From: Psychroserpens ponticola
GTDB lineage: Bacteria > Bacteroidota > Bacteroidia > Flavobacteriales > Flavobacteriaceae
Direction of reading: 5' to 3'
Length of the DNA stretch: 64,000 bases
Assembly: GCF_023556315.2 (NCBI RefSeq)
Contig: NZ_CP116221.1
Span: forward strand, 2,553,001 to 2,617,000
Shown here: positions 14,227-42,369 of the stretch, one piece after another
Numbering within the stretch: position 1 is the first letter of the stretch
Layout of the letters: the number at the start of each line of letters is the position of its first letter
Translations under genes and position numbers: made by a program
Notes under the pieces: generated by a model
The model's input: only the letters and a program-made list of their open reading frames with translations
Database searches by the model: none
What the model was told of the DNA's origin: nothing

Positions 14227-14269
14227 CAAATCTAAGCCATTGCTATTTTATAAAAGCTGACTACTATCA
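14227..14269 (-). promoter_or_regulatory. FNR-type class II promoter for the copper-receptor operon
   Basis: TGA-CTACTA-TCA at 14258-14269 is followed on the minus strand, after exactly 23 bp, by the -7 element TAGATTTG (14234-14227). The site overlaps the stop codon of the upstream lipoprotein gene. The same spacing is found at seven other promoters in the window. Confidence 0.68.
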
Positions 14270-14719
14270 TACTTCAAAAAACTTAAAATAGGCATTAATA
14301 AGTTGTTCTAAATTATAAAAAGCGGATTTAATTTTTTGATCATCATCTTCCTCTCTTAACACAGAAATTTCATCAAGCATAGGAATTAAAACGATATGCA
14401 ATTGATCATGTGACTCACCTTTCATACTACAATGTTTGATGATATAACCTGTTTGTTGAGCAAGGTTTTCCCCTAAGGTTTTATAATCAGTACTATTGTC
14501 AGCTTTAAATGCTGAAATAATAGAATTCATTTTGGTTAGGCCTTTGTGTGTTTCCACATTAGCAATCCACTTTTTGTTAGCATTCAATTTCAATGGTAGG
14601 GAATCTACAATTGAAATGGTTTCAATATCAGGATTATAACCTGAATCACCTTTTTTTGTATCACTTTTACAGCCAATAATAAAAATTAGTGAGCATGTAA
14701 TTATAAAAAATCTAATCAT
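14267..14719 (-). CDS. Lipoprotein of the nos locus
   Basis: A 150-residue lipoprotein (lipobox before C17 in IIGCKSD). The mature part is helical, with a central KHCSMKGESHDQLH segment rich in potential metal ligands (H, C, M, H, H). This is reminiscent of small copper-binding DUF3347-type proteins, though I cannot assign it firmly. It begins 22 bases after nosY and is probably the last gene of the nos operon. A function in copper handling for NosZ is inferred only from position and ligands. Confidence 0.55.
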   Translation of the reverse strand: MIRFFIITCSLIFIIGCKSDTKKGDSGYNPDIETISIVDSLPLKLNANKKWIANVETHKGLTKMNSIISAFKADNSTDYKTLGENLAQQTGYIIKHCSMKGESHDQLHIVLIPMLDEISVLREEDDDQKIKSAFYNLEQLINAYFKFFEV

Positions 14720-14741
14720 AATTCAAAGGTATTAATTAATT

Positions 14742-15524
14742 CTAAAAATCTTTCTTACGAGATTTAAAAATAATTCGAAATACAGGTAAAACAACCCAAA
14801 CTGTCAACATAACAAATGATACTATAAGTCCGAAACTAGTTCCGAAAAATTGTTTAAAAACTGCTCCTGTATATCCTAATAAAGCTGAAATATCTAATTT
14901 TAAAAGAATTAGAGTTCTTGATAAATCTATAGGATTTAGCATGGTTCCAACTAATGATAATTTATCTAAGGGGTAATCTTCAAACATAATTAAAGTCATT
15001 AAAAACAAGCCATCATAAATAATAGCTAAAAACAGCCATAACAGAATTGCATAACCAAATCCTTTAATTTTATTTTCATTTGACAGCGCAATATTAAACG
15101 CCAAAGCCGTAAAGATTAGCGTTAAAAATGTTCCTGTAATTAACAGTAAAGAAAAATCCCAAATGGCACTACTTTCAAATAAGCCATAGAAAACAAAAGG
15201 AATTCCAAGTCCGAGAATCAAACTAATAGAAAGTGATAATGCTACACCTAAATATTGTCCAAGAAATATGGAAGATCGTTTTAAAGGTTGTGCAAGGAGG
15301 AGTTCGGTAAATTCTTTAGAATTATAATAATACATGACGCCAAAAATGGTTCCAATTAAAGGTACTAAAACGATAATTACATTCATTAAAGTGATGACCG
15401 CTTTTGATAAATCATTATTTAAAAACAAGAGTACAACTCCGAGTAATAAATAGAATGCAAAATAGACGTAACTCCAACGGCTACGCATTAAATCGAAAAA
15501 ACTATATTTTAATATTTTAAGCAT
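14742..15524 (-). CDS. nosY: NosY, ABC transporter permease for nitrous oxide reductase maturation
   Basis: A 260-residue integral membrane protein with about six helices, beginning LKYSFFDLMRSRWSYVYF, and the segment EFTELLLAQPLKRSSIFLGQYLG that couples ABC-2 type permeases to their ATPase. It lies downstream of nosF and nosD, so it is NosY. NosDFY energises delivery or assembly of the CuZ centre. An 85-base gap with a strong inverted repeat separates it from nosF. Confidence 0.9.
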   Translation of the reverse strand: MLKILKYSFFDLMRSRWSYVYFAFYLLLGVVLLFLNNDLSKAVITLMNVIIVLVPLIGTIFGVMYYYNSKEFTELLLAQPLKRSSIFLGQYLGVALSLSISLILGLGIPFVFYGLFESSAIWDFSLLLITGTFLTLIFTALAFNIALSNENKIKGFGYAILLWLFLAIIYDGLFLMTLIMFEDYPLDKLSLVGTMLNPIDLSRTLILLKLDISALLGYTGAVFKQFFGTSFGLIVSFVMLTVWVVLPVFRIIFKSRKKDF

Positions 15525-15549
15525 GATTGTTTTTATGGTTTATTTACCT

Positions 15550-15607
15550 CTCGACTGTACTCGAAGTGACATTTTATTAATTATTTGTCAGGTCGAGTAC
15601 AGTCGAG
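15550..15607. repeat. Perfect 15-bp inverted repeat between nosF and nosY
   Basis: CTCGACTGTACTCGA (15550-15564) is the exact reverse complement of TCGAGTACAGTCGAG (15593-15607). TGAC and GTCA can extend the stem after a small bulge. It starts 2 bases after the nosF stop on the minus strand and belongs to the same dispersed family as 1904-1962. It could slow or end transcription inside the nos operon. Confidence 0.72.
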
Positions 15608-15609
15608 AC

Positions 15610-17546: not shown

Positions 17547-17550
17547 AGTA

Positions 17551-17988
17551 CTAGTCCTTAAAATGTACTAATAATTCATTCCAAGTATATAATTCACCTC
17601 CTTTTTCAGTTTGTGTTTGTTGAGCTTTGCTTTTATCTTCAAAAGCCGATAAAAATGCTCCCATTGGACTAGGAATATTTTTGCTTATTAAAAATGTAGC
17701 TTTTGTAGCATCGGTAAGTGTTTTAGGTTTTGCATAGTCATTTGAGAGATACAATGCTATTTCAGAAGTGTCAAACTCATCCATAAAATGGATCATGCAT
17801 TCGGTAGCATCGAATTTATATACTTTTCCTTTTTGGGTTACAATTTCTGCAGCATGAACTTTGTCGACAATAGTCATTTTACAAAAATGACAGCCATCGT
17901 TACCATAATCTATAGGCTTTGGTGACACATTACAGTTGAAAAAGAACAATAGCAATGCAAAGATTGAATAGTGTTTTAGTGTTTGCAT
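17551..17988 (-). CDS. nosL: NosL, copper chaperone lipoprotein
   Basis: A 145-residue protein with an N-terminal hydrophobic signal that may be lipidated at C19. The mature protein has the Cu(I) site CHFCKM (C33, C36, M38) and the conserved FDATECMIHFM segment. NosL supplies copper to apo-NosZ for CuZ assembly. It lies between a conserved membrane protein gene and nosD in the nos operon. Confidence 0.93.
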   Translation of the reverse strand: MQTLKHYSIFALLLFFFNCNVSPKPIDYGNDGCHFCKMTIVDKVHAAEIVTQKGKVYKFDATECMIHFMDEFDTSEIALYLSNDYAKPKTLTDATKATFLISKNIPSPMGAFLSAFEDKSKAQQTQTEKGGELYTWNELLVHFKD

Positions 17989-21328: not shown

Positions 21329-21829
21329 TTATAATGTTCTAAAATATTCTAATACAGCTCTAGCATCTTCTTTAGATAAGTTTTGATTTGCCATTGGAGA
21401 GCCATTAAATTCCATCAATAATTCTTTAGCCAAAGGATCCTCTTTTACCATTTGCTCTGGATTTAATATCATGTTCATAATCCATTCTGGAGTACGTCGT
21501 TCTAGAATTCCTGTTGGTGCAGGTCCAATAAATTTTTTGTCTGCTCTATGACAAGCCGTACACATTTTTTTGTAAACTTCTTCTCCATGTTTAACCATCT
21601 TTTGGTCAATTTCAGAATCTAAAGTCACTGATGTGATTGGACCTAATCCTTTATTCGTTAAGTCAATTTTTTTTGATGCTAGTATAGCTTTCTCCTTAGG
21701 AGTTTCCTTTTTTGCAGGAGCTTCTTTTCTGCCATAAGAGATAGATTCTTTTTTCTTTTCTTCTTTGCCTCCACAACTTAAAAGTAGTGTTACAAATAAT
21801 ACAGTCATTAGTTTTAGTGTTGTCTTCAT
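21329..21829 (-). CDS. Monohaem cytochrome c lipoprotein, first gene of the nos operon
   Basis: A 166-residue lipoprotein (C19 in LLLSCGG) followed by a charged tether and one cytochrome c domain: haem motif CTACH near residue 90, and an axial Met probably in SPMANQNLS. It likely donates electrons to the CuA centre of NosZ. It is the first gene after an FNR-type promoter (21849-21891) and an Rrf2-type operator (21898-21911). Confidence 0.9.
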   Translation of the reverse strand: MKTTLKLMTVLFVTLLLSCGGKEEKKKESISYGRKEAPAKKETPKEKAILASKKIDLTNKGLGPITSVTLDSEIDQKMVKHGEEVYKKMCTACHRADKKFIGPAPTGILERRTPEWIMNMILNPEQMVKEDPLAKELLMEFNGSPMANQNLSKEDARAVLEYFRTL

Positions 21830-21848: not shown

Positions 21849-21891
21849 CAAAAATAAAGCTCATAACTGTCAAAAAATATGACAATTATCA
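21849..21891 (-). promoter_or_regulatory. FNR-type class II promoter of the nos operon
   Basis: TGA-CAATTA-TCA at 21880-21891, then 23 bp, then the -7 element TATTTTTG (21856-21849 on the minus strand). The predicted start point near 21844 puts the palindrome at about -41.5, the position for class II activation. Confidence 0.78.
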
Positions 21892-25299: not shown

Positions 25300-25325
25300 C
25301 TCTAAAATTTTAGAGCTTTTTTTTA
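25300..25325. terminator. Bidirectional intrinsic terminator
   Basis: GCTCTAAAA (25300-25308) and TTTTAGAGC (25309-25317) form a perfect palindrome flanked by A and T runs. It lies between the convergent beta-propeller gene and the FNR-type regulator gene. Confidence 0.88.
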
Positions 25326-26000
25326 TTCAATACGCTTCAAACCTTCAATATTTTCAATCTTAATCTGTTTCCCTTTTGTAGAAATTAGATTTTCCTTTTT
25401 AAATTGTGACAGGATTCTAATTGCAGATTCTGTTGCTGTTCCAACAATATTAGCATAGTCTTCTCTTGAAAGTGTAATGGACAAGTATCCATCTTCATCT
25501 ACTCCAAAATGCGCATTCAAATAGATTAAAACATCAGCTAATCGATTCTTAACAGATTTCTGAGCCATATCAACGATGACATTATCAGAATCTTTTAAAT
25601 CATGAGCCATTTTTTGCAAAACGTCTAAAGTAAACTTAGGATTGTTTTGAAGATCTGTCATAATCTCACTCTTAGGAATAAAACAAACTTCCATATCATT
25701 AAGAGCTACAGCACTTAAATTTGCCGACTCCTCACCTATTAGCGAACGTTGTCCTAATAAATCACCTTTAACTACTAATTTTACAATTTGATCTTTACCA
25801 TTAGCACTTAATTTTGATAATTTACAAACACCATCTTTAACACAAAACACGCCATTTACTGTTTCTCCTTCTTCAAAAATGACTTCACCTTTCTTGATGA
25901 CTCTTGATGTTTTACAACCGGAAATCCGAACTAACTCCTCTTTTGTTAAGGCTTTTAGAGAATTAAACTGTCTAATAATGCATTGTTCGCATTTGCTCAT
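25323..26000 (-). CDS. fnr: Crp/Fnr-family transcriptional regulator, FNR-type
   Basis: A 225-residue regulator. I start it at the ATG giving MSKCEQCII, because the longer frame upstream runs through the promoter region and overlaps the divergent ccoI start. Residues 1-130 form the cyclic-nucleotide-like beta-roll; cysteines C4, C7, C29 and C53/C59 could bind a [4Fe-4S] cluster, as C20, C23, C29 and C122 do in E. coli FNR, though the spacing differs. The C-terminal HTH has a recognition helix containing TESAIR; the Glu and Arg that read the TGA half-site are kept, while the Ser of E. coli FNR is Ile. A site for this type of protein lies at 26038-26049, between fnr and ccoI. It is the obvious candidate regulator of the FNR-type promoters in this window. 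Confidence 0.85.
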   Translation of the reverse strand: MSKCEQCIIRQFNSLKALTKEELVRISGCKTSRVIKKGEVIFEEGETVNGVFCVKDGVCKLSKLSANGKDQIVKLVVKGDLLGQRSLIGEESANLSAVALNDMEVCFIPKSEIMTDLQNNPKFTLDVLQKMAHDLKDSDNVIVDMAQKSVKNRLADVLIYLNAHFGVDEDGYLSITLSREDYANIVGTATESAIRILSQFKKENLISTKGKQIKIENIEGLKRIE

Positions 26001-26037
26001 ACCTAAAAAATGTTTATCTTCAAAAATACTAAAAACA

Positions 26038-26080
26038 TGATAAAAATCATAGTTTAAAACGGTCTCTTTACCAACCTTTG
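26038..26080 (+). promoter_or_regulatory. FNR-type class II promoter of ccoI-hemN
   Basis: TGA-TAAAAA-TCA at 26038-26049, 23 bp, then AACCTTTG (26073-26080), which differs from TAnnTTTG at one base. ccoI starts 26 bases later. On the other side, a -7-like TATTTTTG (26028-26021, minus) lies only 9 bp from the palindrome, so the same site could repress fnr. Confidence 0.68.
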
Positions 26081-29858: not shown

Positions 29859-29901
29859 TGACAAATATCATATTCTTAAAGCTTAAACGAACGTAATTTT
29901 G
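29859..29901 (+). promoter_or_regulatory. FNR-type class II promoter of the cco operon
   Basis: TGA-CAAATA-TCA at 29859-29870, then 23 bp, then a perfect -7 element TAATTTTG (29894-29901). ccoS starts 21 bases later. The predicted start point near 29906 gives a site centre at about -41.5. Confidence 0.8.
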
Positions 29902-29921: not shown

Positions 29922-30110
29922 ATGAGTGTTATATATATTTTACTGAGTATCAGCATTATCGTTGCCATTGTGTTTTTTATAGCGTTTATAACTGCTGTAA
30001 AAAGTGGACAATACGACGATAGTTATACTCCATCTGTTAGAATGCTTTTTGAAGACGAACTCGTTAAAGAGCAACCTAAACCATCTATTAAATCAAAAAA
30101 GACTAATTAA
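29922..30110 (+). CDS. ccoS: CcoS, cbb3 oxidase assembly protein
   Basis: A 62-residue single-helix membrane protein (helix about 3-26) with the typical CcoS C-terminal motif SGQYDDSYTPSVRMLFED. CcoS is needed for insertion of haem and copper into CcoN. It precedes ccoNO by 6 bases. Confidence 0.92.
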   Translation: MSVIYILLSISIIVAIVFFIAFITAVKSGQYDDSYTPSVRMLFEDELVKEQPKPSIKSKKTN

Positions 30111-30116: not shown

Positions 30117-32306
30117 ATGGAAGTCCAACAATTTTATTACGATAACAAAATCGTCAAAAATTTCCTTTATGCAACAATGCTTTGGGGAGTTGTAGGAATG
30201 TTAGTAGGTTTACTACTCGCATTTATGTTTTTATTCCCAAATTTAACTGATGGAATTTCCTGGTTAAGTTTTGGTCGTCTTAGACCATTGCATACCAATG
30301 CAGTTATCTTTGCTTTTGTTGGTAATGCCATTTTTGCTGGTGTATACTACTCATCGCAACGTTTACTTAAGGCGAGAATGTTTAGCGACCTTTTAAGTAA
30401 AATTAATTTTTGGGGTTGGCAATTAATTATTGTTGGAGCTGCAATAACTCTTCCATTAGGTTATTCTACATCTAAAGAATATGCCGAATTAGAATGGCCT
30501 TTTGATATTGCTATTGCATTGATTTGGGTAGTTTTTGGTTGGAACTTGATTGGAACATTGCTCAAAAGAAGACAACGTCATTTATATGTTGCCATTTGGT
30601 TTTACTTAGCAACGTTTGTAACCGTTGCTGTACTTCATATTTTTAATAGTTTGGAATTACCTGTTAGTGGACTCAAAAGTTACTCTGTATATGCTGGTGT
30701 TCAAGATGCCTTAGTACAATGGTGGTATGGTCATAATGCGGTTGCATTTTTCTTGACAACACCTTTCTTAGGTTTAATGTACTACTTCGTACCTAAAGCA
30801 GCTAACAGACCAGTGTATTCATATCGTTTATCTATTGTACATTTCTGGTCATTAATCTTTATTTATATTTGGGCTGGACCTCACCATTTATTATATACCG
30901 CTTTACCTGAATGGGCTCAAAATTTAGGTGTCGCATTCTCTGTAATGTTATTGATGCCATCTTGGGGTGGAATGATTAACGGACTTCTAACACTTCGTGG
31001 TGCTTGGGATAAAGTACGAACAGATCCTGTTCTTAAATTTATGGTAGTCGCAATTACTGGTTATGGTATGGCAACCTTTGAAGGACCTATGCTATCTCTT
31101 AAAAATGTAAATGCTATTGCACACTTTACTGATTGGATTATTGCTCACGTTCATGTTGGAGCACTAGCATGGAATGGTTTTCTTGCCTTTGGTATGATTT
31201 ATTATTTAATACCTCGTTTAGTAAAAACAAAATTATACTCAACTGCCTTAGCTAATCTGCATTTCTGGATAGGTACACTTGGTATCATCATGTATGCTCT
31301 TCCAATGTATGTTGCTGGTTTCACACAAGCAAGTATGTGGAAACAATTTAATCCTGACGGCACTTTAGTGTATGGAAATTTCTTAGAAACCGTATCCGAA
31401 ATTATGCCAATGTATTGGATGCGCGCTATTGGAGGAACACTTTTTATTGCAGGAATGTTAATTTTAGTTTACAATATAATAGCAACCATTAGAAAAGGTA
31501 GCGCTGTAACTGATGAATTAGCGGAAGCTCCTGCATTACAAAACGTATCTAAAAGACGTGTTGCTGGTGAAGGATGGCATACTTGGTTAGAAAGAAAGCC
31601 GATTAAATTAACAATTTATGCAACTATTGCGATTCTAATTGGTGGTATTGTACAAATTGTTCCAACCATAATGGTTAAATCAAATATCCCAACAATTAGT
31701 AGTGTACAACCATATACACCTTTAGAGTTAGAAGGTCGTGATATTTATATACGTGAAGGTTGTGTTGGCTGTCACTCGCAAATGGTAAGACCATTTAGAA
31801 GTGAGGTTGAACGTTATGGTGAATACTCCAAAGCTGGAGAATTTGTTTATGATCATCCTTTCCTTTGGGGAAGTAAACGTACTGGTCCTGATTTACATCG
31901 TGTTGGTGGGAAATATTCCGACAATTGGCACTTAAACCATATGTATGATCCACAAAGTACTTCTTCAGGTTCTATAATGCCTGCTTACCAATGGTTAATA
32001 AAAAACAAACTTGATAAATCTCTAACTGAGACTAAAATGAAAGCAATGGTAAGTCTAGGTGTACCTTATACTGAAGATGATATTGCCAATGCGCAACAAT
32101 CTATGACTGAACAAGGTACTAAAATTGAGAAAAACTTGTATTCAGATCCAGATTTTGCTGATACTTATGAAGCCGACAAAAAAGCTGGCGGACAAGATTT
32201 CGTTGAAATGCGCAATCGTGAAATCGTTGCTGTTATCGCATACTTACAACGATTAGGAACAGATATTAAAGTAAAAGATGACGAAGTAACATCAAATAAA
32301 AACTAA
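30117..32306 (+). CDS. ccoNO: cbb3-type cytochrome c oxidase, fused CcoN-CcoO subunits I and II
   Basis: A 729-residue fusion. Residues 1-470 are the catalytic CcoN: low-spin haem ligand H59 (RPLHTN), CuB ligands H206 (WYGHNA) and H256/H257 (GPHHLLY), and haem ligands near H344/H346 (AHVHVG), with about twelve helices. Residues 500-729 are the monohaem cytochrome c CcoO, anchored by a helix at about 498-516 and with the haem motif CVGCH at 549-553. In Proteobacteria the two are separate; the fusion is typical of Bacteroidota. This high-affinity oxidase works at low oxygen in the inner membrane. Confidence 0.96.
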   Translation: MEVQQFYYDNKIVKNFLYATMLWGVVGMLVGLLLAFMFLFPNLTDGISWLSFGRLRPLHTNAVIFAFVGNAIFAGVYYSSQRLLKARMFSDLLSKINFWGWQLIIVGAAITLPLGYSTSKEYAELEWPFDIAIALIWVVFGWNLIGTLLKRRQRHLYVAIWFYLATFVTVAVLHIFNSLELPVSGLKSYSVYAGVQDALVQWWYGHNAVAFFLTTPFLGLMYYFVPKAANRPVYSYRLSIVHFWSLIFIYIWAGPHHLLYTALPEWAQNLGVAFSVMLLMPSWGGMINGLLTLRGAWDKVRTDPVLKFMVVAITGYGMATFEGPMLSLKNVNAIAHFTDWIIAHVHVGALAWNGFLAFGMIYYLIPRLVKTKLYSTALANLHFWIGTLGIIMYALPMYVAGFTQASMWKQFNPDGTLVYGNFLETVSEIMPMYWMRAIGGTLFIAGMLILVYNIIATIRKGSAVTDELAEAPALQNVSKRRVAGEGWHTWLERKPIKLTIYATIAILIGGIVQIVPTIMVKSNIPTISSVQPYTPLELEGRDIYIREGCVGCHSQMVRPFRSEVERYGEYSKAGEFVYDHPFLWGSKRTGPDLHRVGGKYSDNWHLNHMYDPQSTSSGSIMPAYQWLIKNKLDKSLTETKMKAMVSLGVPYTEDDIANAQQSMTEQGTKIEKNLYSDPDFADTYEADKKAGGQDFVEMRNREIVAVIAYLQRLGTDIKVKDDEVTSNKN

Positions 32307-32312
32307 TTTATC

Positions 32313-32498
32313 ATGCTAAAATTTGTAAAAAACCATATGGAAAGTATCACTGGAATAGAAATATATCCTATGATCTCCTTACTCATATTTTTCAGTTTTT
32401 TCGTCGTCCTTTTCTGGTGGGTAATTACCGCAAAAAAAGACTATATCAACACCGTGAGTAACCTTCCTTTAGACAACCAAAACACTACAGAATTATGA
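32313..32498 (+). CDS. ccoQ: CcoQ-like small cbb3 oxidase subunit
   Basis: A 61-residue protein with one membrane helix (about 19-38, followed by WWVITAKKDYI). Its position between ccoNO and ccoP and its size match CcoQ, which stabilises the oxidase. It overlaps ccoP by 4 bases. Confidence 0.82.
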   Translation: MLKFVKNHMESITGIEIYPMISLLIFFSFFVVLFWWVITAKKDYINTVSNLPLDNQNTTEL

Positions 32499-33433
32499 GA
32501 AATTTCATTCCTTCTTGGATAAGAGTACCTGCAGTATTCTTTATTATTGCTGGTATCGTAGAATATACTATAGATTCTGGTGATAAACCCGCGTTTATTG
32601 AAAAACCAATGGTATTACTATTCTTAATATTAGTACTATTAATAATTATTGCTATTGAAGCTATAGTGTCTTCAATTAACAATGTATTATATCAAAGTTT
32701 AGATGAAGCAGCAAAAGCACGTTATAATGCTCAAAAATCAAAGACACCAAAACTTATAAGTTGGACTTCTGAAGCATACCAAAAATTACTAGGTAGCAAA
32801 CCTATGGAAGAAGAACATGAAATTGTCTTAGATCATAATTACGATGGCATAAAAGAATTAGATAATAATCTTCCACCATGGTGGATCTATGGGTTTTATG
32901 CAAGTATCGTTTTTGCAGCAATTTATTTAGTGCGTTTCCATGTGTTTAATGGGGAAAATCAGTATGATGAACTCGAATCTGACTTAGTTCAAGCTAAAAT
33001 TGACATCGAAGAATATAAGAAAAATGCAAAAGATTTGGTCGACTTTAATACCGTAGAATTATTAACTGAAACTAGTGATTTAAAAGCTGGACAAAAACTA
33101 TTTGAAATGAACTGTGTGGCTTGCCATAAAGCTGATGGTGGAGGCGGAATTGGCCCGAACCTTACCGATAAACATTGGATCTTGGGTGGTGGAATTAATA
33201 ACGTTTTCAAAACAGTTTCAGAAGGTGGTCGTGATGGAAAAGGTATGATTGCTTGGAAACAAAGTTTGAAACCAGCAGAAATCGCTCAAGTAGCTAGTTA
33301 TCTACTCCAATTTCAAGGCACAACACCTGCAGAACCGAAAGCTCCTGAAGGTGATATTTGGATCGATAAAAATGCTCCAACCGAAGACGTTGTAACTGAA
33401 TCAGTTGAAGTTCAAGACATAAAAGAAGATTAA
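32495..33433 (+). CDS. ccoP: CcoP, cbb3 oxidase cytochrome c subunit III
   Basis: A 312-residue protein with N-terminal helices (about 10-25 and 40-58), a further helix near 130-147, and a single cytochrome c domain with haem motif CVACH at 207-211 and GPNLTDKHWI. Proteobacterial CcoP usually has two haems; only one CxxCH is present here, as in other Bacteroidota. The PWW motif at 127-129 before the third helix is conserved in CcoP. It passes electrons to CcoO/CcoN. Confidence 0.93.
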   Translation: MRNFIPSWIRVPAVFFIIAGIVEYTIDSGDKPAFIEKPMVLLFLILVLLIIIAIEAIVSSINNVLYQSLDEAAKARYNAQKSKTPKLISWTSEAYQKLLGSKPMEEEHEIVLDHNYDGIKELDNNLPPWWIYGFYASIVFAAIYLVRFHVFNGENQYDELESDLVQAKIDIEEYKKNAKDLVDFNTVELLTETSDLKAGQKLFEMNCVACHKADGGGGIGPNLTDKHWILGGGINNVFKTVSEGGRDGKGMIAWKQSLKPAEIAQVASYLLQFQGTTPAEPKAPEGDIWIDKNAPTEDVVTESVEVQDIKED

Positions 33434-33482
33434 TTTTATTGATTCTTAGATAAGAACTGCTAAGTTTCAAAATAAGACTGTT

Positions 33483-34907
33483 ATGAACACACCTGAAAAC
33501 GAAACATTTAGAGATTCTATTGGAACCATCAATGAAGATGGAAATCGTGCTTGGGTGTATCCTAAAAAACCAAGTGGATGGTATTATGAAAAACGTAAAA
33601 TTGTAAGTTATGCCTTATTAGCATTTCTTTTTGCTGCACCTTTTATTAAAATTAACGGCAATCAGTTTTTGATGTTTAATGTTTTAGAACGACGTTTTAA
33701 CATCTTCGGATTCCCCTTTTGGCCACAAGATTTTCATTTGTTTGTGATTTCAATGTTGGTTGCTGTCATTTTTATCACATTATTCACGGTTGGTTTCGGA
33801 CGTATTTTTTGTGGATGGATTTGTCCGCAAACCATTTTTATGGAAATGGTTTTCCGTAGAATTGAGTATTGGATTGATGGCGACAGAAATAAACAACGAA
33901 AACTACAAAGACAAAAATGGGATGCTGAAAAAATCAGAAAACGCATCTTTAAATGGTTCATATTTTTAGTCATATCCTTTTTAATTGCTAATATCTTTTT
34001 GGCCTATCTTATTGGAAGTGACAAGCTTTTAAGATATATCATTGATGGGCCATTTGAACATTTAGGTACGCTATTTCCTTTGATTATTTTTACTGGAGTA
34101 TTCTATTTTGTTTTTGCATGGTTTAGAGAACAAGTTTGTATTATTGCTTGTCCATATGGAAGACTTCAAGGCGTCCTTCTAGATAATAAATCTATTATAG
34201 TCGCTTATGATCATAAACGTGGTGAAGCCGAAAATGGAAGAAAGAAATTTAGAAAAAATGAAGACAGAGAAGCACTTGGTCATGGCGATTGCATTGATTG
34301 TTTACAATGTGTAAATGTTTGTCCGACTGGAATAGATATTAGAAATGGTACGCAATTAGAATGTGTTAATTGTACTGCATGCATTGATGAATGCGATCAT
34401 ATTATGGAAAGTATTAATCTTCCTAAAGGGTTGATCAGATATGCAAGTGAAGATAATATTGAAAAGGGAAAGAAATTTGAATTTACACCTAGACTAAAAG
34501 GCTATTCGGCAGTATTATTTATTTTAACAGGTGTTTTATGCGGCATGTTGTTATTAAGAAATGATGTTGAGGCTAGAGTATTACGGTTACCTGGTCAACT
34601 TTATGAACACAAAGGTGAATCTATAATTAGTAATGTATTCACCTATAAACTTGTAAATAAAACCACTGAAAAAATTGAAGATGTCAATTTTAAGTTGAGA
34701 GCATACCAAGGAGAAATTAAATTGGTTTCAAATACAGGCAAGGTTGAAGTTCCTGAGCAAGGATTAGCTGAAGGCACTTTATTTATAGAGATTGACAAAA
34801 GTGAATTAAAAGGCGATAAAAACAAACTCATGATTGAAGTTTACAGTGGAGAAGAACTCATTGAAACGACAACAGTTAACTTTTTAGGACCGAGAAGTTA
34901 TAATTAA
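33483..34907 (+). CDS. ccoG: CcoG, cbb3 oxidase accessory ferredoxin
   Basis: A 474-residue membrane protein: about five helices, a first cysteine motif CGWICPQ, a CIIACPYGRLQ segment, and two ferredoxin-type clusters, CIDCLQCVNVCP and CVNCTACIDEC. A C-terminal immunoglobulin-like domain follows the last helix. CcoG reduces Cu(II) for CuB assembly in the oxidase. It is 49 bases downstream of ccoP, and a 12-bp hairpin follows the stop codon. Confidence 0.94.
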   Translation: MNTPENETFRDSIGTINEDGNRAWVYPKKPSGWYYEKRKIVSYALLAFLFAAPFIKINGNQFLMFNVLERRFNIFGFPFWPQDFHLFVISMLVAVIFITLFTVGFGRIFCGWICPQTIFMEMVFRRIEYWIDGDRNKQRKLQRQKWDAEKIRKRIFKWFIFLVISFLIANIFLAYLIGSDKLLRYIIDGPFEHLGTLFPLIIFTGVFYFVFAWFREQVCIIACPYGRLQGVLLDNKSIIVAYDHKRGEAENGRKKFRKNEDREALGHGDCIDCLQCVNVCPTGIDIRNGTQLECVNCTACIDECDHIMESINLPKGLIRYASEDNIEKGKKFEFTPRLKGYSAVLFILTGVLCGMLLLRNDVEARVLRLPGQLYEHKGESIISNVFTYKLVNKTTEKIEDVNFKLRAYQGEIKLVSNTGKVEVPEQGLAEGTLFIEIDKSELKGDKNKLMIEVYSGEELIETTTVNFLGPRSYN

Positions 34908-34942
34908 CAAAAGTTAAAAGGCATTAGGAATTTTAACTTTTG
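34908..34942 (+). terminator. Hairpin downstream of ccoG
   Basis: CAAAAGTTAAAA (34908-34919) and TTTTAACTTTTG (34931-34942) are exact reverse complements with an 11-base loop. The stem is A+T-rich and is not followed by a long T run, so termination would be incomplete. Confidence 0.55.
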
Positions 34943-35143
34943 CCCTTAAACTTCCAATTGAAAGTCGCATTAAGGATTGAAACGGCATCCTTTTTATTTG
35001 TCTCTTCGAGCGCAGTCGAGAAGTTGTCAAATAAAAAGATACAGTGTAAAGCCTGACGCTTTTGATTGCAATGAAAAAGGGTAATGCCCTAAAACAAACA
35101 ATATGATTCTGAAATAAGTTCAGGATGACAAAATAAATAGGTT
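34943..35143. repeat. Composite intergenic element between ccoG and ccoH
   Basis: A non-coding stretch with nested symmetry. CTTTTTATTTG (34990-35000) pairs exactly with CAAATAAAAAG (35028-35038); inside it lies the dispersed word TTCGAGCGCAGTCGAGAA (35005-35022). Further right is a small hairpin CTGAA/TTCAG (35109-35123) within a phrase that recurs in flavobacterial intergenic DNA, as far as I remember. No start-to-stop reading frame of note is present. Confidence 0.5.
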
Positions 35144-35590
35144 ATGAAAATAAATTGGGGAACAGGCATCGTACTAGCATTTATTGGGTTTATTAGCTTT
35201 ATAATGTTCTTTGTTATTCGTATGAATACAGATAATAAATTTGATCATGATTTGGTTACCGAAAATTATTACAAAGCCGAATTAGAATATCAAAATGATA
35301 TTAATAAAGAGGAAAACTCTAAAACCTTAAGGTCTGATATTACTTGGAAAAAAACCTCAGAAGGTTTACTCATTATATTTCCCGAAGATCTAAAATCTCA
35401 AAACATTGAAGGAAAAGTGTTCCTATATAGACCATCTAACAAACAAGTAGACTTTGAAAGCTCAATTTCATTGTCTGATCACAATTTGCTCATACCTGAC
35501 AAACGTTTGTTGGATGGTCGTTGGAACATTAAAATTGATTGGCAATATAACGGAAAATCCTATCTCTACAAAAAAGAGATCGTGTATTAA
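35144..35590 (+). CDS. ccoH: CcoH/FixH family protein
   Basis: A 148-residue protein with one N-terminal helix (about 7-26), the FixH signature DLVTENYYKAELEYQ, and a periplasmic beta-sandwich domain. FixH/CcoH takes part in assembly of cbb3 oxidase. It lies 236 bases after ccoG, with a composite repeat between. Confidence 0.9.
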   Translation: MKINWGTGIVLAFIGFISFIMFFVIRMNTDNKFDHDLVTENYYKAELEYQNDINKEENSKTLRSDITWKKTSEGLLIIFPEDLKSQNIEGKVFLYRPSNKQVDFESSISLSDHNLLIPDKRLLDGRWNIKIDWQYNGKSYLYKKEIVY

Positions 35591-35603
35591 ATAGAATGTC
35601 TCC

Positions 35604-35680
35604 TCGAGCAATACAGCAATTAAAACATGTTTATATTGAAAGAAACGAGAGGTTAATAAAGAGGTTTCGACTGTGCTCGA
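35604..35680. repeat. Dispersed repeat downstream of ccoH
   Basis: TCGAGCA (35604-35610) and TGCTCGA (35674-35680) are complementary, and the second arm is part of TTCGACTGTGCTCGA (35666-35680), a member of the family also seen at 1904-1962 and 15550-15607. It fills most of the gap between ccoH and the TauE/SafE gene. Confidence 0.5.
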
Positions 35681-35704
35681 CCTAACACATATACAACATA
35701 ATTT

Positions 35705-36406
35705 ATGCTTTGGTCTGCTCTCATATTTGGTTTACTAGGAAGTTTCCATTGCGTTGGAATGTGTGGCCCTATTGCCTTTATGTTACCTGTTGACAGAAGT
35801 AACTCTTTAAAAAAAGTCTCTCAAATTACAACCTATCACTTAGGAAGATTATTGGCATATGCACTAATTGGTTTGGTTTTCGGTTTGGTTGGAAAGAGTC
35901 TATATATCTTTGGAATTCAACAACAATTATCAATAGTCATTGGTATATTAATGATTGTTATCATTCTTATTCCTGTGCACACCTTTAATAAATACAACTT
36001 TTCTAAGCCGTTATACAGAATTATTTCAAAAGTAAAATCATCACTTGGTAAAGCGCTCAAAAAGAAAACAGCAGATACGTTCTTAACCATAGGTTTCTTA
36101 AATGGTTTTTTACCTTGTGGCTTGGTTTACATGGCTGTTTTTGCATCATTAACAATGTCAAGCGCAATTGAGAGTAGCCTGTATATGATGCTATTCGGTT
36201 TAGGAACGATTCCGTTGATGACAACAGCAATATATTTAGGGAAATTTTTAAACGCAACAGTTAAGCAACGCATTCAAAAAGCCATTCCTGTTTTTGTTGT
36301 AATTATCGGATTGCTATTTATTGTTCGTGGTATGGGATTAGGTATTCCTTACCTCTCTCCTGCTCCAATAATTGATGTTAGTTCTAGTACAATTGATTGT
36401 CATTAA
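35705..36406 (+). CDS. TauE/SafE-type (UreH-like) membrane protein of the cco locus
   Basis: A 233-residue membrane protein with about six helices, opening LIFGLLGSFHCVGMCGP and containing a second FLNGFLPCGLVYMA motif, both typical of the UreH-like TauE/SafE proteins found next to cco genes. The conserved Cys-containing motifs HCxGMCGP and PCG could bind copper. It may assist metal delivery to the oxidase; annotations as sulfite exporter are by family only. It is the last gene of the cco cluster. Confidence 0.82.
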   Translation: MLWSALIFGLLGSFHCVGMCGPIAFMLPVDRSNSLKKVSQITTYHLGRLLAYALIGLVFGLVGKSLYIFGIQQQLSIVIGILMIVIILIPVHTFNKYNFSKPLYRIISKVKSSLGKALKKKTADTFLTIGFLNGFLPCGLVYMAVFASLTMSSAIESSLYMMLFGLGTIPLMTTAIYLGKFLNATVKQRIQKAIPVFVVIIGLLFIVRGMGLGIPYLSPAPIIDVSSSTIDCH

Positions 36407-36431: not shown

Positions 36432-36474
36432 TGACTTTCATCATAGTTTATTTTAGTTAATTTCAGTAACTTTA
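36432..36474 (+). promoter_or_regulatory. FNR-type class II promoter of usp-PPOX
   Basis: TGA-CTTTCA-TCA at 36432-36443, then 23 bp, then TAACTTTA (36467-36474). The universal stress gene starts 20 bases later. Confidence 0.7.
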
Positions 36475-36493: not shown

Positions 36494-37321
36494 ATGAAAA
36501 CGATTCTATTACTCTCCGATTTTTCTAATAATGCAACAAACGCAATACATTATGCGATGCACTTTTTTGAATCTGAAACATGTACTTTCTACATAATGAA
36601 TGTACATAAAGCAGGTTCATTTATTTCAGATGATTTGATGACTTCTTCTACTGAAAACATTTATGAATCATTTACAAAAGTTCCTAGACAGAAACTTAAT
36701 ACACTTGTTGAAGATTTAAAAACCAACTACAACAACCCAAATCATACATTTGAAATTATAGTAGATTTCGATGTATTTACTGATGCTGTAAATCAAGCCA
36801 TTAAGCATAATTCTATCGATTATGTTGTTATGGGATCAAATGGTGCTACAGGTGCCATTGAAGTTGTTTTTGGTAGCAATACCATTAATGTCATTAGACA
36901 AGTGATTTGTAAAACGTTAATCGTTCCAAATGAATATTCATTTAAACCGATTTCAAATTTTTTATTGCCTTTACAATTTGATGACGCTATTAAAAGTGAG
37001 CAAATAAATGTCATAAATGATTTTACAAAATACCATAACCTTAAATTACATGTATTGAGAGTATGTGATAAAAATGAAACAAACAGTATTTCAAATGACC
37101 AAGAAATGCTAGATGCGTTTAACTGCAAGTATTCTCTTGAAGAAGAAACTTCATTTTATAATGCAGTAACAAATTATCTAAAAACAAATGCAATTGATTT
37201 GACAGGTTTGATTGTTCATGACAAATCATTTATAAAACGATTTTTCACAGAATCACCAAGTATAGAATTAAGCAAGGTCATTAAATTACCTTTAATGATA
37301 TTTCATAGTAGAGACATTTAA
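36494..37321 (+). CDS. Universal stress protein with tandem UspA domains
   Basis: A 275-residue protein. The first UspA domain (1-150) begins KTILLLSDFSNNATNAI and has the nucleotide-binding type motif MGSNGATGAIEVVFGSNT. The second domain (about 155-275) is degenerate and lacks this motif. Universal stress proteins accumulate on respiratory or redox stress. It follows an FNR-type promoter and shares a unit with the PPOX gene, 18 bases downstream. Confidence 0.85.
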   Translation: MKTILLLSDFSNNATNAIHYAMHFFESETCTFYIMNVHKAGSFISDDLMTSSTENIYESFTKVPRQKLNTLVEDLKTNYNNPNHTFEIIVDFDVFTDAVNQAIKHNSIDYVVMGSNGATGAIEVVFGSNTINVIRQVICKTLIVPNEYSFKPISNFLLPLQFDDAIKSEQINVINDFTKYHNLKLHVLRVCDKNETNSISNDQEMLDAFNCKYSLEEETSFYNAVTNYLKTNAIDLTGLIVHDKSFIKRFFTESPSIELSKVIKLPLMIFHSRDI

Positions 37322-37339: not shown

Positions 37340-37789
37340 ATGATTAAAAATTTAGACAAAGCAGATTGTCAACTGATTTTAAGACAAAATTACATAGGTC
37401 ATTTGGGCTATATTTATAGAGATAGACCTTTTGTGATTCCTATAACGTATTTTTTTAAAGACAATAGAATTATTTGCTATTCTGGTGAAGGCCATAAAAT
37501 TATTGCCATGAGAAAACATGGACCAATAACCTTAGAAGTTTCAGATATAACATCTGTTGACCATTGGCAATCTATTGCAGTACATGGAAATTATGAAGAA
37601 TTTGAAGGCAGTGCAGCCAAAGCTTTGCTTCATGATTTTTCATTAGGAATTAAAGATGTTATTTTAAATAAAGAACATAGAGACTTAAACTTTATAAGTG
37701 AATTTTCAGCCAAAATAGCGAAGAATGATCTCCCAATTGTATTCGTTATCAATATTGAAGATGTCACTGGAAAAGTGCGACGCAAATAG
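37340..37789 (+). CDS. Pyridoxamine 5'-phosphate oxidase-like flavin-binding protein
   Basis: A 149-residue split-barrel protein. Features are GHLGYIYRDRPFVIPITYFF, GEGHKIIAMRKHG and WQSIAVHGNYEEFEG, in the order of PPOX/NimA-like flavin nucleotide-binding proteins. It may bind FMN or F420-like cofactor and reduce small molecules. It is co-oriented with, and 18 bases from, the universal stress gene, and its stop is 2 bases from that of the convergent aspartoacylase-like gene. Confidence 0.8.
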   Translation: MIKNLDKADCQLILRQNYIGHLGYIYRDRPFVIPITYFFKDNRIICYSGEGHKIIAMRKHGPITLEVSDITSVDHWQSIAVHGNYEEFEGSAAKALLHDFSLGIKDVILNKEHRDLNFISEFSAKIAKNDLPIVFVINIEDVTGKVRRK

Positions 37790-38955: not shown

Positions 38956-40818
38956 TTATGAATTAAGTTTCTCTAAATCTGTTTTGGTTAATATTCCAAC
39001 CAACTCATTGTGATCTATAATTGGGAGGCATCGTATATTATTCTCAAGCATTATAGATTTAGCTTCTTCAATATGCATGTCTGGAGTTCCGTACTTAATA
39101 TCTTTTTGCATGACTTGAGATGCAGAATGGTCATCAAACTTATCCACATTAGAAATGTCACTTGTTGAAATAATACCAACAATTTTATGCTCTTCATTAA
39201 TAACAGGAATGTGATTTATATCTTTCCATTGCATAATATTCTTAATAAGTCTCATTGAATCATTTTCATGGACTGTAAAAATTTGAGTTGACATCACTTT
39301 ATGTACTTTATCATTAGAGCTAGCATCTTTTCTTGCTAAAGGTTTTGCTAATTCCCACTCGCTTACAGGTAAATTTTCTTGTTGATTTTTATGCATATGA
39401 TAGGTTAATAAGATGTTGGCTTCTTCTCTAGAAACATCTTCTTGAAGCATTCTACTACTTCTTACCAACCATTTACTTCCAGTTGTATTTTTGTCTATTC
39501 GTTCTTTTATTATATTGAGGTAAAACTCAATATCCTCAATATTTATATTAGCTTTTAAAAGTCCATCATGAGCCATTGGCAACAAGATTTTTTTTGCTAA
39601 TTTTTTTGCAGAAACACCTTTTCCAAACCAATTAAAATAAGTATCTAAGCCAGTTCTTGCCGCTTTTATAAAATTACCTTTTGCATCTTTAAAAGCCATA
39701 CGTTTCCATATCGATTTACAATCTTCAGGCATGCCTAACATCACACCAATCCAAAACATAGCATTTGCAATTTCATCTTTAATACTTGGTCCAGATGGTA
39801 TGTACCTATTTTCAATTCGTAAATGCGCCACATTTTTATGAACGCCATAACAGACTCTATTCCATTTATAAAGTGTTCCGTTATGCAAACCAATAGCCTT
39901 TAATTCTGGTTTGATTCCGTTTTTTAAATCTTCTATAGGATTGCCTTCAAGCTCTGAAGTCACTAAAGGTGCATATCGTGAAACATCATCTGTAAAGACT
40001 TCAATAATTGAATCTTTAATCCAATCATTGCCAAAGTTCACTCTTGCCTTTTGCTCTCTAAGTAATTGTGATCTATTTCGTAAATCTATACTCTGCTGAA
40101 ACAAAGCAATACGTGTTTCGCTCCAAAGCTCACGTCCTAAAAGCATAGGAGAATTCGTCATAACTGACAAAATTGGACCAGCAATAGCTTGAGACCAATT
40201 ATACTGATCGACTATATCATCTAAGTCAATTTGTAAATGCACTTGAAAACTTGTATTACATGCTTCAAATAAAATAGATTCATGGTCTAATATTAGCTCA
40301 TCAACTCCTCTTACTTTCACTCTAAAATTATTTCCTCTAACTTTTTTCATGACATCATTCAACACTTTATAACGTTGAAAAGGCGTCATGTTTTCAAACA
40401 CGAGATCTTTACGTTTAAAGGTTGGTAAAATACCTGTGAGTATGATTTTATTGAAGTCTATAGCATCTGCAGCTTTTATGGCTTTCTCTACCAATTCGGA
40501 AAGGTCTTTTTCGAGTTGTGAAAAGCAAGTTCCTTTTAATTCTAATGGATCTAAGTTGGCTTCTAAATTAAAAAGCCCAAGCTCAGTTGTAAAATGAACA
40601 TCATTAATTTCTGCTAAGATTTCTAAGGCATTAAATGATGGTCTATAATATTGATCTACAATGCAAAATTCTTGTTCAGCACCAATACGCTGAATTCCTT
40701 TTTCGAAGGCATCAGATTTAATCATCATGTCTAATGCTTCTATATCATTTAACAAATGATTTATAAACACCTTTCTTTCAGTTTTATTAGTTATTGGCTT
40801 AACCGATTGTGACCCCAT
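38956..40818 (-). CDS. Glutamate-cysteine ligase family 2 (GCS2) domain protein with C-terminal CBS pair
   Basis: A 620-residue cytosolic protein. Residues about 40-480 resemble GCS2 carboxylate-amine ligases: RIGAEQEFCIVD, FNLEANLDPLEL, RVCYGVHKNVAHLRIENRYIPSGPS. The C-terminal 120 residues hold two CBS motifs (KVMSTQIFTVHENDS... and VMQKDIKYGTPDM...), which usually bind adenine nucleotides and regulate the attached enzyme. I choose the ATG at 40818: an upstream in-frame GTG (40848) would place the -7 promoter element TAAATTTG inside the coding region. It precedes the aspartoacylase-like gene. The product may be a gamma-glutamyl or similar amide, not necessarily glutathione precursor. Confidence 0.82.
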   Translation of the reverse strand: MGSQSVKPITNKTERKVFINHLLNDIEALDMMIKSDAFEKGIQRIGAEQEFCIVDQYYRPSFNALEILAEINDVHFTTELGLFNLEANLDPLELKGTCFSQLEKDLSELVEKAIKAADAIDFNKIILTGILPTFKRKDLVFENMTPFQRYKVLNDVMKKVRGNNFRVKVRGVDELILDHESILFEACNTSFQVHLQIDLDDIVDQYNWSQAIAGPILSVMTNSPMLLGRELWSETRIALFQQSIDLRNRSQLLREQKARVNFGNDWIKDSIIEVFTDDVSRYAPLVTSELEGNPIEDLKNGIKPELKAIGLHNGTLYKWNRVCYGVHKNVAHLRIENRYIPSGPSIKDEIANAMFWIGVMLGMPEDCKSIWKRMAFKDAKGNFIKAARTGLDTYFNWFGKGVSAKKLAKKILLPMAHDGLLKANINIEDIEFYLNIIKERIDKNTTGSKWLVRSSRMLQEDVSREEANILLTYHMHKNQQENLPVSEWELAKPLARKDASSNDKVHKVMSTQIFTVHENDSMRLIKNIMQWKDINHIPVINEEHKIVGIISTSDISNVDKFDDHSASQVMQKDIKYGTPDMHIEEAKSIMLENNIRCLPIIDHNELVGILTKTDLEKLNS

Positions 40819-40836
40819 AATTTTATGCAATGTTCT

Positions 40837-40879
40837 CAAATTTAACACATTACTAGCGTAGGTTTTATGACTTTTATCA
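40837..40879 (-). promoter_or_regulatory. FNR-type class II promoter of the GCS2-CBS unit
   Basis: The palindrome TGA-CTTTTA-TCA (40868-40879), read on the minus strand, is followed after exactly 23 bp by the -7 element TAAATTTG (40844-40837). This supports the ATG at 40818 as the true start, with a leader of about 14 bases. Confidence 0.68.
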
Positions 40880-40910
40880 TAGTTTTTAGCCTTGTATATG
40901 GCTAACTTTA
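40868..40910 (+). promoter_or_regulatory. FNR-type class II promoter of the CBS gene
   Basis: The same palindrome (40868-40879) read on the plus strand is followed after 23 bp by TAACTTTA (40903-40910). The CBS gene starts 24 bases later. One site thus serves two divergent promoters with the same spacing. Confidence 0.7.
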
Positions 40911-40934
40911 ATAGATAAAATAAAACCTAACATT

Positions 40935-41354
40935 ATGAAAAAACGTACACCAGTGTCAGCTATTATGACCAAGAATATTATTGCAGTAAACAGAACAGAT
41001 GATTTAGAGACTGCAGAGAAACTTTTTAAACAACATCATATTAGACATATTCCAGTTGTTTCTGGAGATGTAATTATTGGGATGTTGAGTTATACAGATT
41101 TACTTCGCATTAGTTTTGCTGATGCAGTAAATGAAAATGAAACAGAAGTAGACACTGTTGTTTACAACATGTTTACTATAAATCAAGTGATGAGTAAAAA
41201 TGTAGTAACAATTAGTTCAGAAGTTACAATAAAAGAGGTTGCTGAATTATTGGCTAAAAATGAGTTCCATGCTTTACCAGTTGTTGATGAAGGTCAACTT
41301 GTAGGTATTGTAACCACAACAGATTTAATAAATTATTTAATTGATCAGTTTTAA
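40935..41354 (+). CDS. CBS-domain pair protein
   Basis: A 139-residue protein made only of two CBS motifs: PVSAIMTKNIIAVNRTDD and VMSKNVVTISSEVT, each followed by an HIPVV/HALPVV and GMLSYTDL/GIVTTTDL segment. Such stand-alone pairs sense adenine nucleotides. It resembles the CBS tail of the divergent GCS2 protein and shares an FNR-type site with it. Confidence 0.88.
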   Translation: MKKRTPVSAIMTKNIIAVNRTDDLETAEKLFKQHHIRHIPVVSGDVIIGMLSYTDLLRISFADAVNENETEVDTVVYNMFTINQVMSKNVVTISSEVTIKEVAELLAKNEFHALPVVDEGQLVGIVTTTDLINYLIDQF

Positions 41355-41370
41355 TCAAAATCACAACCAT

Positions 41371-41402
41371 AAAAAAAGAGTTAGTTTCCTAACTCTTTTT
41401 TT
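41371..41402. terminator. Bidirectional intrinsic terminator
   Basis: AAAAAAAGAGTTAG (41371-41384) and CTAACTCTTTTTTT (41389-41402) form a perfect 14-bp stem with a 4-base loop between convergent genes (CBS and universal stress). Confidence 0.9.
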
Positions 41403-41422
41403 ATGCCTTAACTTTAGTTCAA

Positions 41423-42256
41423 TTAGATTCTAAATGTAATCACTGGCAACGTTGAATGATTAGCTATATCTTCACCAATGCTTCCGCTAAAAAAGTGAGA
41501 TATTCCTCTGCGACCATGTGTTGGTACTGCAATTAAATCACCACCTACAATATTTGCAAAAGTGAGTACACCTTCTTCTACAGTATAATCGGAAATGTAT
41601 TGGATCTCGTTTAACTTATTTAAGTTCCCATCTGCTTTTTCAAGAAATTTAGCGACTGTTGCTTCCATTTCGGTAGAACTTTTAAAACGTTCACCTGGCA
41701 AGTTCACATATAAAAGTTTTAAGTTAGAAGACGTATTTTCAAAAAACTGACATGCTTTTAAATAAGGTTCTACCATTTCTTCTGAAAAATCACAAGCAAA
41801 AACAACCGTCTCAAATTTCACATTAGCTGGTTTCTGCTTTACAACAAGAACAGGGATTTCAGAATGCCTTACTACTTTTTCAGTATTCGAGCCAACTAAA
41901 ATTTCGGTAAAACCACTTGCTCCATGTGAACCCATAACAATTAAATCTGCATTGTGTTCTTTAGCAACATCACTAACTTCACGAAATACTTTAAAGTGCT
42001 TTACTATTGGAGTAACAGTAATGTCTTTTAAATAATCTCGTTCTAGAAACTCTTTAAATTTCTTTTCAGCAAGTTTCAAAAAGAATACAGTTTGCATTTG
42101 TTGTTCATCATTAGAATCTACAAGCATAGTATTAGCCATTTCTAACATGTGCAATGCAATAACTTCAGCATTATTTTTCTTTGCCAAAATTGCTGCAGTT
42201 TCAAGTGCATATTCAGAATGTTTAGAAAAGTCAATTGGTACTATTATTTTGTTCAT
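41423..42256 (-). CDS. Universal stress protein with tandem UspA domains
   Basis: A 277-residue protein with two UspA domains. The first (1-145) has KIIVPIDFSKHSEYAL and the nucleotide-binding motif MGSHGASGFTEILVGSNT; the second ends with VPTHGRRGISHFFSGSIGEDI, close to the same motif. Both sites could bind ATP. It is transcribed from a promoter with an FNR-type site (42327-42369), as the other usp gene is. Confidence 0.92.
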   Translation of the reverse strand: MNKIIVPIDFSKHSEYALETAAILAKKNNAEVIALHMLEMANTMLVDSNDEQQMQTVFFLKLAEKKFKEFLERDYLKDITVTPIVKHFKVFREVSDVAKEHNADLIVMGSHGASGFTEILVGSNTEKVVRHSEIPVLVVKQKPANVKFETVVFACDFSEEMVEPYLKACQFFENTSSNLKLLYVNLPGERFKSSTEMEATVAKFLEKADGNLNKLNEIQYISDYTVEEGVLTFANIVGGDLIAVPTHGRRGISHFFSGSIGEDIANHSTLPVITFRI

Positions 42257-42326
42257 ATTTATAGTTTTAGTGATTTATTATAAAACCATTTCCATCTTTA
42301 GAAATGTTTAACGTTTAATTACACGA

Positions 42327-42369
42327 TAAAGGTATTGGCTAACCTTCAGAATAAAAATGACATTTATCA
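42327..42369 (-). promoter_or_regulatory. FNR-type class II promoter of the second usp gene
   Basis: TGA-CATTTA-TCA at 42358-42369, 23 bp, then TACCTTTA (42334-42327 on the minus strand). The divergent sodC gene has no -7 element at this spacing. The 5' leader of usp would be about 66 bases. Confidence 0.66.

Follow-up and report, generated by a model that had tools for sequence, protein, structure and literature searches.

A palindrome at a nearly constant 23 nucleotides from the -7 box marks candidate low-oxygen promoters in Psychroserpens ponticola and other Flavobacteriaceae

A 64,000-nucleotide (nt) stretch of the Psychroserpens ponticola genome (assembly GCF_023556315.2, contig NZ_CP116221.1, positions 2,553,001 to 2,617,000; hereafter the window, whose own coordinates are used unless a genome position is indicated) holds genes of a cbb3 oxidase and of nitrous oxide reduction (nos), together with copper, haem and universal stress (usp) genes, and in their middle a gene for an FNR-type regulator. 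Seven palindromes begin at 14258, 21880, 26038, 29859, 36432, 40868 and 42358, all present as a first-pass annotation had described them. They serve eight promoters, and in all eight exactly 23 nt separate the TCA of the palindrome from the -7 box; the boxes given there, TAGATTTG, TATTTTTG, AACCTTTG, TAATTTTG, TAACTTTA, TAACTTTA, TAAATTTG and TACCTTTA, are borne out. The observation is thus confirmed for the window. The interpretation attached to it, a local regulon with invariant spacing bound by the neighbouring FNR-type regulator, is partly supported.

The regulator, a protein of 225 amino acids (aa) beginning MSKCEQC, is encoded on the minus strand at 25323-26000; a mechanically called GTG start at 26129 is too long and encloses the palindrome at 26038-26049. 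This palindrome lies on the plus strand between the regulator gene and ccoI. It stands 23 nt from the ccoI-hemN -7 box (AACCTTTG, 26073-26080, plus strand) and, on the opposite strand, only 9 nt away from the regulator gene's own -7 box (TATTTTTG, 26021-26028, minus strand), where it covers the -33 region. The ccoI-type metal P-type ATPase (26106-28484, plus strand) is followed by a hemN-type protein (28481-29845, plus strand) with a match to the radical SAM domain. The cco operon has its palindrome TGACAAATATCA at 29859-29870 and its -7 box TAATTTTG at 29894-29901, both on the plus strand. Its first gene is ccoS (29922-30110, plus strand; TIGR00847 above cut-off), and the ccoNO fusion, ccoP, ccoG, ccoH and DsbD_2 genes fill 30117-36406 of the same strand. 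Palindrome TGACTTTCATCA (36432-36443) and box TAACTTTA (36467-36474), again on the plus strand, serve a usp gene (36494-37321) and a pyridoxamine-oxidase-like gene (PPOX, 37340-37789).

The palindrome at 40868-40879 serves both strands, with two divergent promoters each 23 nt from it. On the plus strand, box TAACTTTA (40903-40910) precedes a CBS gene (40935-41354). On the minus strand, box TAAATTTG (40837-40844) belongs to a 630-aa open reading frame (ORF; 38956-40848); since it falls within the mechanical GTG start of that frame, translation probably begins at an ATG further downstream. The same frame had been called GCS2, a name that was not confirmed: Pfam found CBS domains only (E 0.001), and NCBIfam gave only matches to the CBS region, below cut-off. 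Three further palindromes lie on the minus strand. TGATAAATGTCA (42358-42369), with box TACCTTTA (42327-42334), serves a usp gene at 41423-42256. TGATAATTGTCA (21880-21891), with box TATTTTTG at 21849-21856, serves the nos genes, namely cytochrome c (21329-21829), fasciclin, nosZ, a 199-aa ORF, nosL, nosD, nosF and an ABC-2 membrane protein. TGATAGTAGTCA (14258-14269) overlaps the final 3 nt of a mechanical frame at 14267-14719 and stands 23 nt from box TAGATTTG (14227-14234, minus strand). It serves an operon starting at 14222, with a 131-aa ORF, a 285-aa ORF and a TonB copper-receptor-like gene (10757-12757) that scored 139 bits against TIGR01778, below the cut-off of 472.

The motif TGAYN4ATCA occurs at 14 places in the window: the seven palindromes above, every one with a -7 box at 23 nt, and seven places within listed ORFs, none of which has a box at that distance. 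The strict box TANNTTTR follows at offset 23 in 7 of the 28 oriented window palindromes against 0.06 expected (binomial P 2e-13, computed before allowing for the choice of offset). The eighth window promoter is that of ccoI, whose box AACCTTTG departs from TANNTTTG at the first base. Across the 4.03-Mb genome, 64 palindrome/-7 pairs were found at gaps of 8-38 nt, 23 of them at gap 23 and 5 at the next commonest gap, 18; reversed patterns gave 33 pairs summed over all gaps of the same genome. Relaxing the box to VANNTTTG adds ccoI only and adds 1 to the reversed control.

The candidate promoters number 24 with ccoI included, 8 in the window and 16 outside it, so that the regulon is not local as had been supposed. 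Eight of the outside sites form a second cluster at 1.115-1.177 Mb of the genome, at genes for three universal stress proteins, a protein that joins a receiver domain to a CRP-type regulator (receiver-CRP), a PAS histidine kinase, a TonB receptor, MlaE, a patatin and others. Other outside sites precede CBS, rhodanese/metallo-beta-lactamase, PPK2, ArsR-type and pyridine nucleotide-disulphide oxidoreductase genes. The half-sites are TGAC/TGAT in most window sites and TGAT/TGAT in most sites of the second cluster.

The position of the palindrome is that of a class II activator site. In Flavobacterium johnsoniae the TANNTTTG box spans -12 to -5, with many transcription starts 4-5 nt beyond it (PMC6847099), and a 23-nt spacer next to a box so placed puts the centre of the dyad at -41.5, in support of the geometry proposed in the first-pass annotation. 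That annotation had also remarked on the lack of evident -33 TTG elements. This lack is not diagnostic, because a motif at -33 is in any case far less apparent in F. johnsoniae promoters (PMC6847099).

Conservation was followed in Psychroserpens-like Flavobacteriaceae, the nearest relatives by their regulator; of 519 loci found, 80 were retained. With the relaxed box NANNTTTR, the gaps in these 80 loci peak at 23 nt (170 pairs) and 9 nt (77 pairs). Of the 79 loci with a ccoI gene, 77 gave a called 23-nt site; inspection of the sequence shows the site in L079 too, and in L038 one base of the palindrome is altered. The cco promoter has its site in 77 loci, including all 76 with ccoNO, and the remaining three loci are without ccoNO. 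The first nos gene has a site in 3 of the 3 loci holding it and the CBS gene in 2 of 2. The 23-nt spacer of ccoI has a mean identity of only 54% between loci, so its length is kept while its letters drift. The ccoI -7 box is without T at its first position (-12) in 76 of 77 loci, and the cco box has T there in 75 of 75; in the published F. johnsoniae promoters this base is nearly invariant (PMC6847099). The ccoI promoter thus looks like a conserved weak promoter, as for one needing help.

On the regulator side of the same intergenic region, TANNTTTR stands at exactly 9 nt from the palindrome in 70 of the 80 loci, and a palindrome lies within 140 nt in 77. A 9-nt gap places the palindrome over the -33 region, and the dimer that activates ccoI may for that reason repress the regulator's own gene in the window's genome. 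The gaps beside the regulator gene vary in 15 other genomes of the family (f1; L097-L111), with two consequences: the 23-nt spacing is a strong rule with exceptions, and the autorepression reading applies to the close relatives, not to the whole family. The outward box lies at 23 nt in 10 of the 15. What had been termed invariant spacing therefore holds within the window, while other genera have some cases of 22 and 24 nt. One of the 15, L104 (G182), has boxes at 23 nt on both sides of its palindrome, an arrangement that would point to positive autoregulation in that genome.

Across 119 Flavobacteriaceae genomes, the composite of palindrome and box at 23 nt occurs 1552 times, in 106 genomes with a median of 11, against 31 for reversed patterns (the control counts were summed by hand). 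Of the 198 Bacteroidota genomes scanned, the composite is found in 70, with a total of 375 matches against 17 reversed.

The FNR-type protein of the window matches PF00027 (cNMP-binding) and PF13545 (Crp-type HTH) above cut-off and matches the fold. The ligand cysteines of the iron-sulphur (Fe-S) cluster of E. coli FNR are C20, C23, C29 and C122. In the window protein C4, C7 and C106 align with FNR ligand positions and the classical third N-terminal cysteine is absent, so it does not have the classical four-cysteine arrangement. Every one of the 79 close relatives of full length has C4, C7, C29, C53, C59 and C106; the reading of the 80th was offset by one residue. Fifty homologues were compared, comprising the window protein, 29 from among the best matches and 20 picked from the rest of the same list: 36, the window protein included, combine C4, C7, C53 and C106; nine have an N-terminal cysteine pair or triple of classical spacing plus C106 and lack C53; and five have neither set, three of them (G012, G095, G099) without all four cysteines. 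In a tree of the 50, which has three rows with very long branches and leaves several forks open, the nine classical-type homologues form one clade (100/99), which suggests that the cysteine swap was probably one event. The protein is a putative Fe-S oxygen sensor whose third ligand would have moved to C53; by jelly-roll topology, C53 and C106 would sit on neighbouring strands of the beta-roll. The AlphaFold model of the regulator has a pLDDT of 76.9, with the first ten residues near 55. The recognition helix of E. coli FNR uses E209, S212 and R213. The Glu and Arg are kept in 79 of 79 full-length close relatives and, by alignment, the Ser has become Ile (I194). The homologues of G012 and G095 (L113 and L114, of an order-level relative) retain the recognition helix.

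The genome encodes four proteins with a Crp-type HTH. The recognition helix reads GTATESAIR in the window protein, GIATETLIR in receiver-CRP, and GTSRPTLNI and HTSRVVISR in the other two; ATE[ST]xIR is found only in the first two. Receiver-CRP, encoded at 1.13 Mb, has its receiver joined to cNMP_binding and HTH_Crp_2 domains in one protein, and its CDIMMP acceptor motif is kept in the 4 of 4 aligned. It is paired with a FixL/DosP-like PAS histidine kinase, the first PAS of which aligns without gaps to FixL (PDB code 1d06) and to the first PAS of DosP. In this alignment a His falls on the haem ligand and an Arg on the regulatory Arg, and both are kept in 4 of 4 kinases aligned. Receiver-CRP is a second regulator with the recognition helix of the window protein, and it would be driven by a FixL-like haem-PAS kinase.

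The number of sites in a genome follows the regulators that it carries. FNR-type proteins were counted to about E 1e-38 and receiver-CRP proteins to 1e-59, with receiver-only matches left out, and the counts are uncorrected for relatedness. Outside f1, genomes with neither regulator have a mean of 0.23 composites (142 genomes), those with FNR-type only 2.76 (17), with receiver-CRP only 2.18 (17) and with both 4.67 (3). Within f1 the site counts are 3-6 (median 4) for FNR-type only (7 genomes), 7-9 (median 8) for receiver-CRP without the window-type FNR (3 genomes) and 6-41 (median 19) for both (9 genomes). In G053, where receiver-CRP with its kinase was found and window-type FNR was not detected at an E 1e-20 cut-off, six of 7 sites were read. 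These stand, at 23 nt, in front of hemN, a 66-aa ORF with ccoNO after it, the first nos gene, an ScdA gene, a usp-like gene next to receiver-CRP and a gene without a name. In G088 the kinase and receiver-CRP lie upstream of a 290-aa gene and of ccoI-hemN-cco-usp-CBS, and a site stands in front of each of five genes: the kinase gene, the 290-aa gene, ccoI, cco and usp. The only FNR of G088 is distant, with classical-type cysteines. In G130 the sites flank receiver-CRP and usp genes, some having no ORF start in range. Receiver-CRP adjoins 23-nt sites in G000, G053, G088 and G130. In a gap scan read by hand, gap 23 accounts for 11 of 25 matches in G130, 7 of 38 in G053 and 9 of 76 in G088, with reversed controls of 5, 21 and 75 over all gaps; G088 is thus enriched at gap 23 only, its matches over all gaps being 76 against 75 reversed. 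Conversely, G142, G084 and G057 are without receiver-CRP: all three have sites in front of hemN and of a small ORF ahead of ccoNO, two of them have one at ccoI, and G142 has one at a usp-like gene. Half-site asymmetry was considered as a mark separating the two regulators and dropped, as FNR-type-only genomes show both forms.

Taken together, the data make it probable that these palindromes act as class II activator sites in a low-oxygen regulon that extends through the family, read by the FNR-type and receiver-CRP proteins. A CRP/FNR-type dimer would bind ATGA(T/C)-N4-(A/G)TCAT centred at -41.5 and would help the Bacteroidota sigma-A polymerase to use the -7 box; the primary sigma factor of this phylum is divergent (PMC6847099). 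At the window promoters the likely activators would be the FNR-type protein (25323-26000) and receiver-CRP. Thus the regulator named in the first-pass annotation is a likely activator, with receiver-CRP as the second candidate that it did not include. A single regulator is insufficient for the site set, and two predicted oxygen sensors appear able to read it, since the recognition helix is shared and the sites are kept in G053 and G088, where window-type FNR was not detected. In a wider form, Flavobacteriaceae would have one oxygen promoter code, a palindrome at -41.5 with nearly constant spacing and two exchangeable sensors (an Fe-S FNR with its ligand relocated to C53, and a FixL-like haem kinase with a one-piece receiver-CRP), and the promoters would persist in genera that gain, lose or exchange the sensor; we see this broader proposal as evenly balanced between right and wrong.

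Several results count against this picture. Three of the 16 outside sites are doubtful: those at 1141151 and 2807976 of the genome are without an ORF start in range, and that at 1742702 has none within 300 nt. Among the 15 f1 genomes the outward spacing is 22 nt in L097 and 24 nt in L108 and L110, L099 has no box at 18-27 nt, and L106 is without a palindrome. Towards the regulator gene, the gap is 9 nt in only 4 of the 15; five have 8, 10 or 11 nt, L104 has the activating distance of 23 nt, and the rest have other gaps or none. The 22-nt composite occurs 97 times, in 63 of the 119 family genomes, against 29 in the reversed control, which makes it probable that some of the 22-nt sites are genuine. 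The 23-nt composite was not found in 13 of the 119, seven of which are of at most 2.2 Mb, and a genome of the same genus, G232, has 3 composite sites where the genome that holds the window has 19. The usp and PPOX sites are less conserved among loci with the gene start (usp2 3 of 9, usp1 1 of 4, PPOX 3 of 6). The window protein scores 96.2 bits against the NCBIfam Fnr model (NF008365), whose cut-off is 228, and so falls outside that subfamily, and G012 and G095 keep 9 sites each though their homologue is without all four cysteines. As for sensor replacement, the absence of window-type FNR in G053 and G130 depends on the E 1e-20 cut-off, and G088 carries its distant classical-type FNR.

The strongest competitor is that the FNR-type protein alone reads the window sites and that receiver-CRP has a different regulon. 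The shared intergenic site of the FNR-type gene and ccoI, which bears out the first-pass remark on a regulator gene in the middle and is found in nearly all of the 80 close loci, speaks for it, as do the cco, hemN and mostly ccoI sites that FNR-type-only genomes still hold. We nevertheless think it unlikely, as receiver-CRP has the same recognition helix and sits among 23-nt sites in G000, G053, G088 and G130, and G053 and G088 keep cco, hemN, nos or usp sites without window-type FNR. That the palindromes are repressor operators merely at a fixed place finds its best case at the regulator's own promoter, where in the window's genome the site 9 nt from the -7 box is in a repressing position. 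At the other promoters, however, the site is at -41.5, presumably an activating position for CRP/FNR proteins, and the ccoI box is without T at -12, as for a help-dependent promoter, which leaves this explanation improbable.

A shade less probable still is that the sites answer the carbon state through a MalR/CRP-like regulator, as suggested by a Flavobacteriales metagenome bin whose CRP/FNR homologues are placed near MalR, with predicted carbon sensing (PMC8510549). The targets are cbb3 oxidase, nos, haem and copper genes, in agreement with the expectation that such sites would lie at respiratory genes; moreover, C4, C7, C53 and C106 are kept in the 79 full-length close relatives, and the kinase beside receiver-CRP has a FixL/DosP-like PAS. 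A chance or compositional artefact of an AT-rich genome we regard as negligible: short degenerate boxes are indeed common at 32% GC, but the family has 1552 composites at 23 nt against 31 reversed and 97 at a one-base shift, and all seven palindromes of the first-pass annotation are positive against none of the seven coding ones.

The E. coli and Aliivibrio fischeri FNR proteins (PDB code 5e44) share with the window protein the CRP fold, the CxxC and the conserved beta-roll cysteine, and FNR class II promoters share the TGA-N6-TCA core and a centre at about -41.5. The window protein differs in lacking the third N-terminal cysteine and having the conserved C53 instead, in its -7 box TANNTTTG and in the helix serine replaced by I194. 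The nearest solved structure, a Crp/Fnr protein of Porphyromonas gingivalis (PDB code 2gau), which we take to be HcpR, belongs to the same superfamily and phylum and is the best match in both sequence and fold; the aligned part starts at residue 35, so that the CxxC is not covered, and other residues stand at C53 and C106.

The arrangement resembles that of rhizobia, in which two branches, hFixL-FxkR-FixK with a haem kinase and FnrN as an Fe-S FNR, meet at TTGAT-N4-ATCAA boxes upstream of fixNOQP, and FnrN is also auto-regulated (PMC7888657). A haem-kinase branch and an Fe-S FNR branch would likewise act on similar boxes here. Unlike in rhizobia, one protein combines the receiver with the CRP/FNR-type DNA-binding part, the phylum and the sigma factor are others, and genomes differ in whether they carry one of the branches or both. 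Receiver-CRP, being one-piece, is not a FixJ/FxkR protein, as these receiver proteins induce a separate fixK gene (PMC7888657).

Searches of the openly licensed PMC literature, from which subscription papers are mostly absent, did not reveal an oxygen regulon of Flavobacteriaceae for which a promoter rule is given. No Bacteroidota FNR regulon was found in that literature either, the nearest being the MalR-like carbon sensing of PMC8510549. If correct, the rule would make it possible to propose low-oxygen genes (for cbb3 oxidase, nitrous oxide reductase, copper, haem and universal stress functions) in those family genomes, 106 of the 119, that have at least one match. It would also be an example from nature of a sensor being replaced while the promoters stay, and would offer a new candidate ligand set for the FNR Fe-S cluster.

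A few observations concern the surroundings. At G000:C1:1175219-1175252 (L089), two palindromes lie 10 nt apart, each 23 nt from one of two divergent genes, the MlaE permease and a 128-aa ORF before the patatin; G306 has a similar pair. The site at 1742702, near a third CRP-family gene, was considered and rejected, with two genes intervening and no ORF start within 300 nt. A CRP-family match at G000:C1:1744195-1744383 (L084, L091:5202-5834) had been flagged for an internal TAA, which by its coordinates is the terminal stop of an open 210-aa gene that the match overruns. In the window, ScdA-type and hemerythrin genes (9420-10754) adjoin the copper-receptor operon, the ScdA gene of G053 carrying its own 23-nt site, and an ECF-type sigma factor gene is followed by an anti-sigma-K-like gene at 50035-51364.

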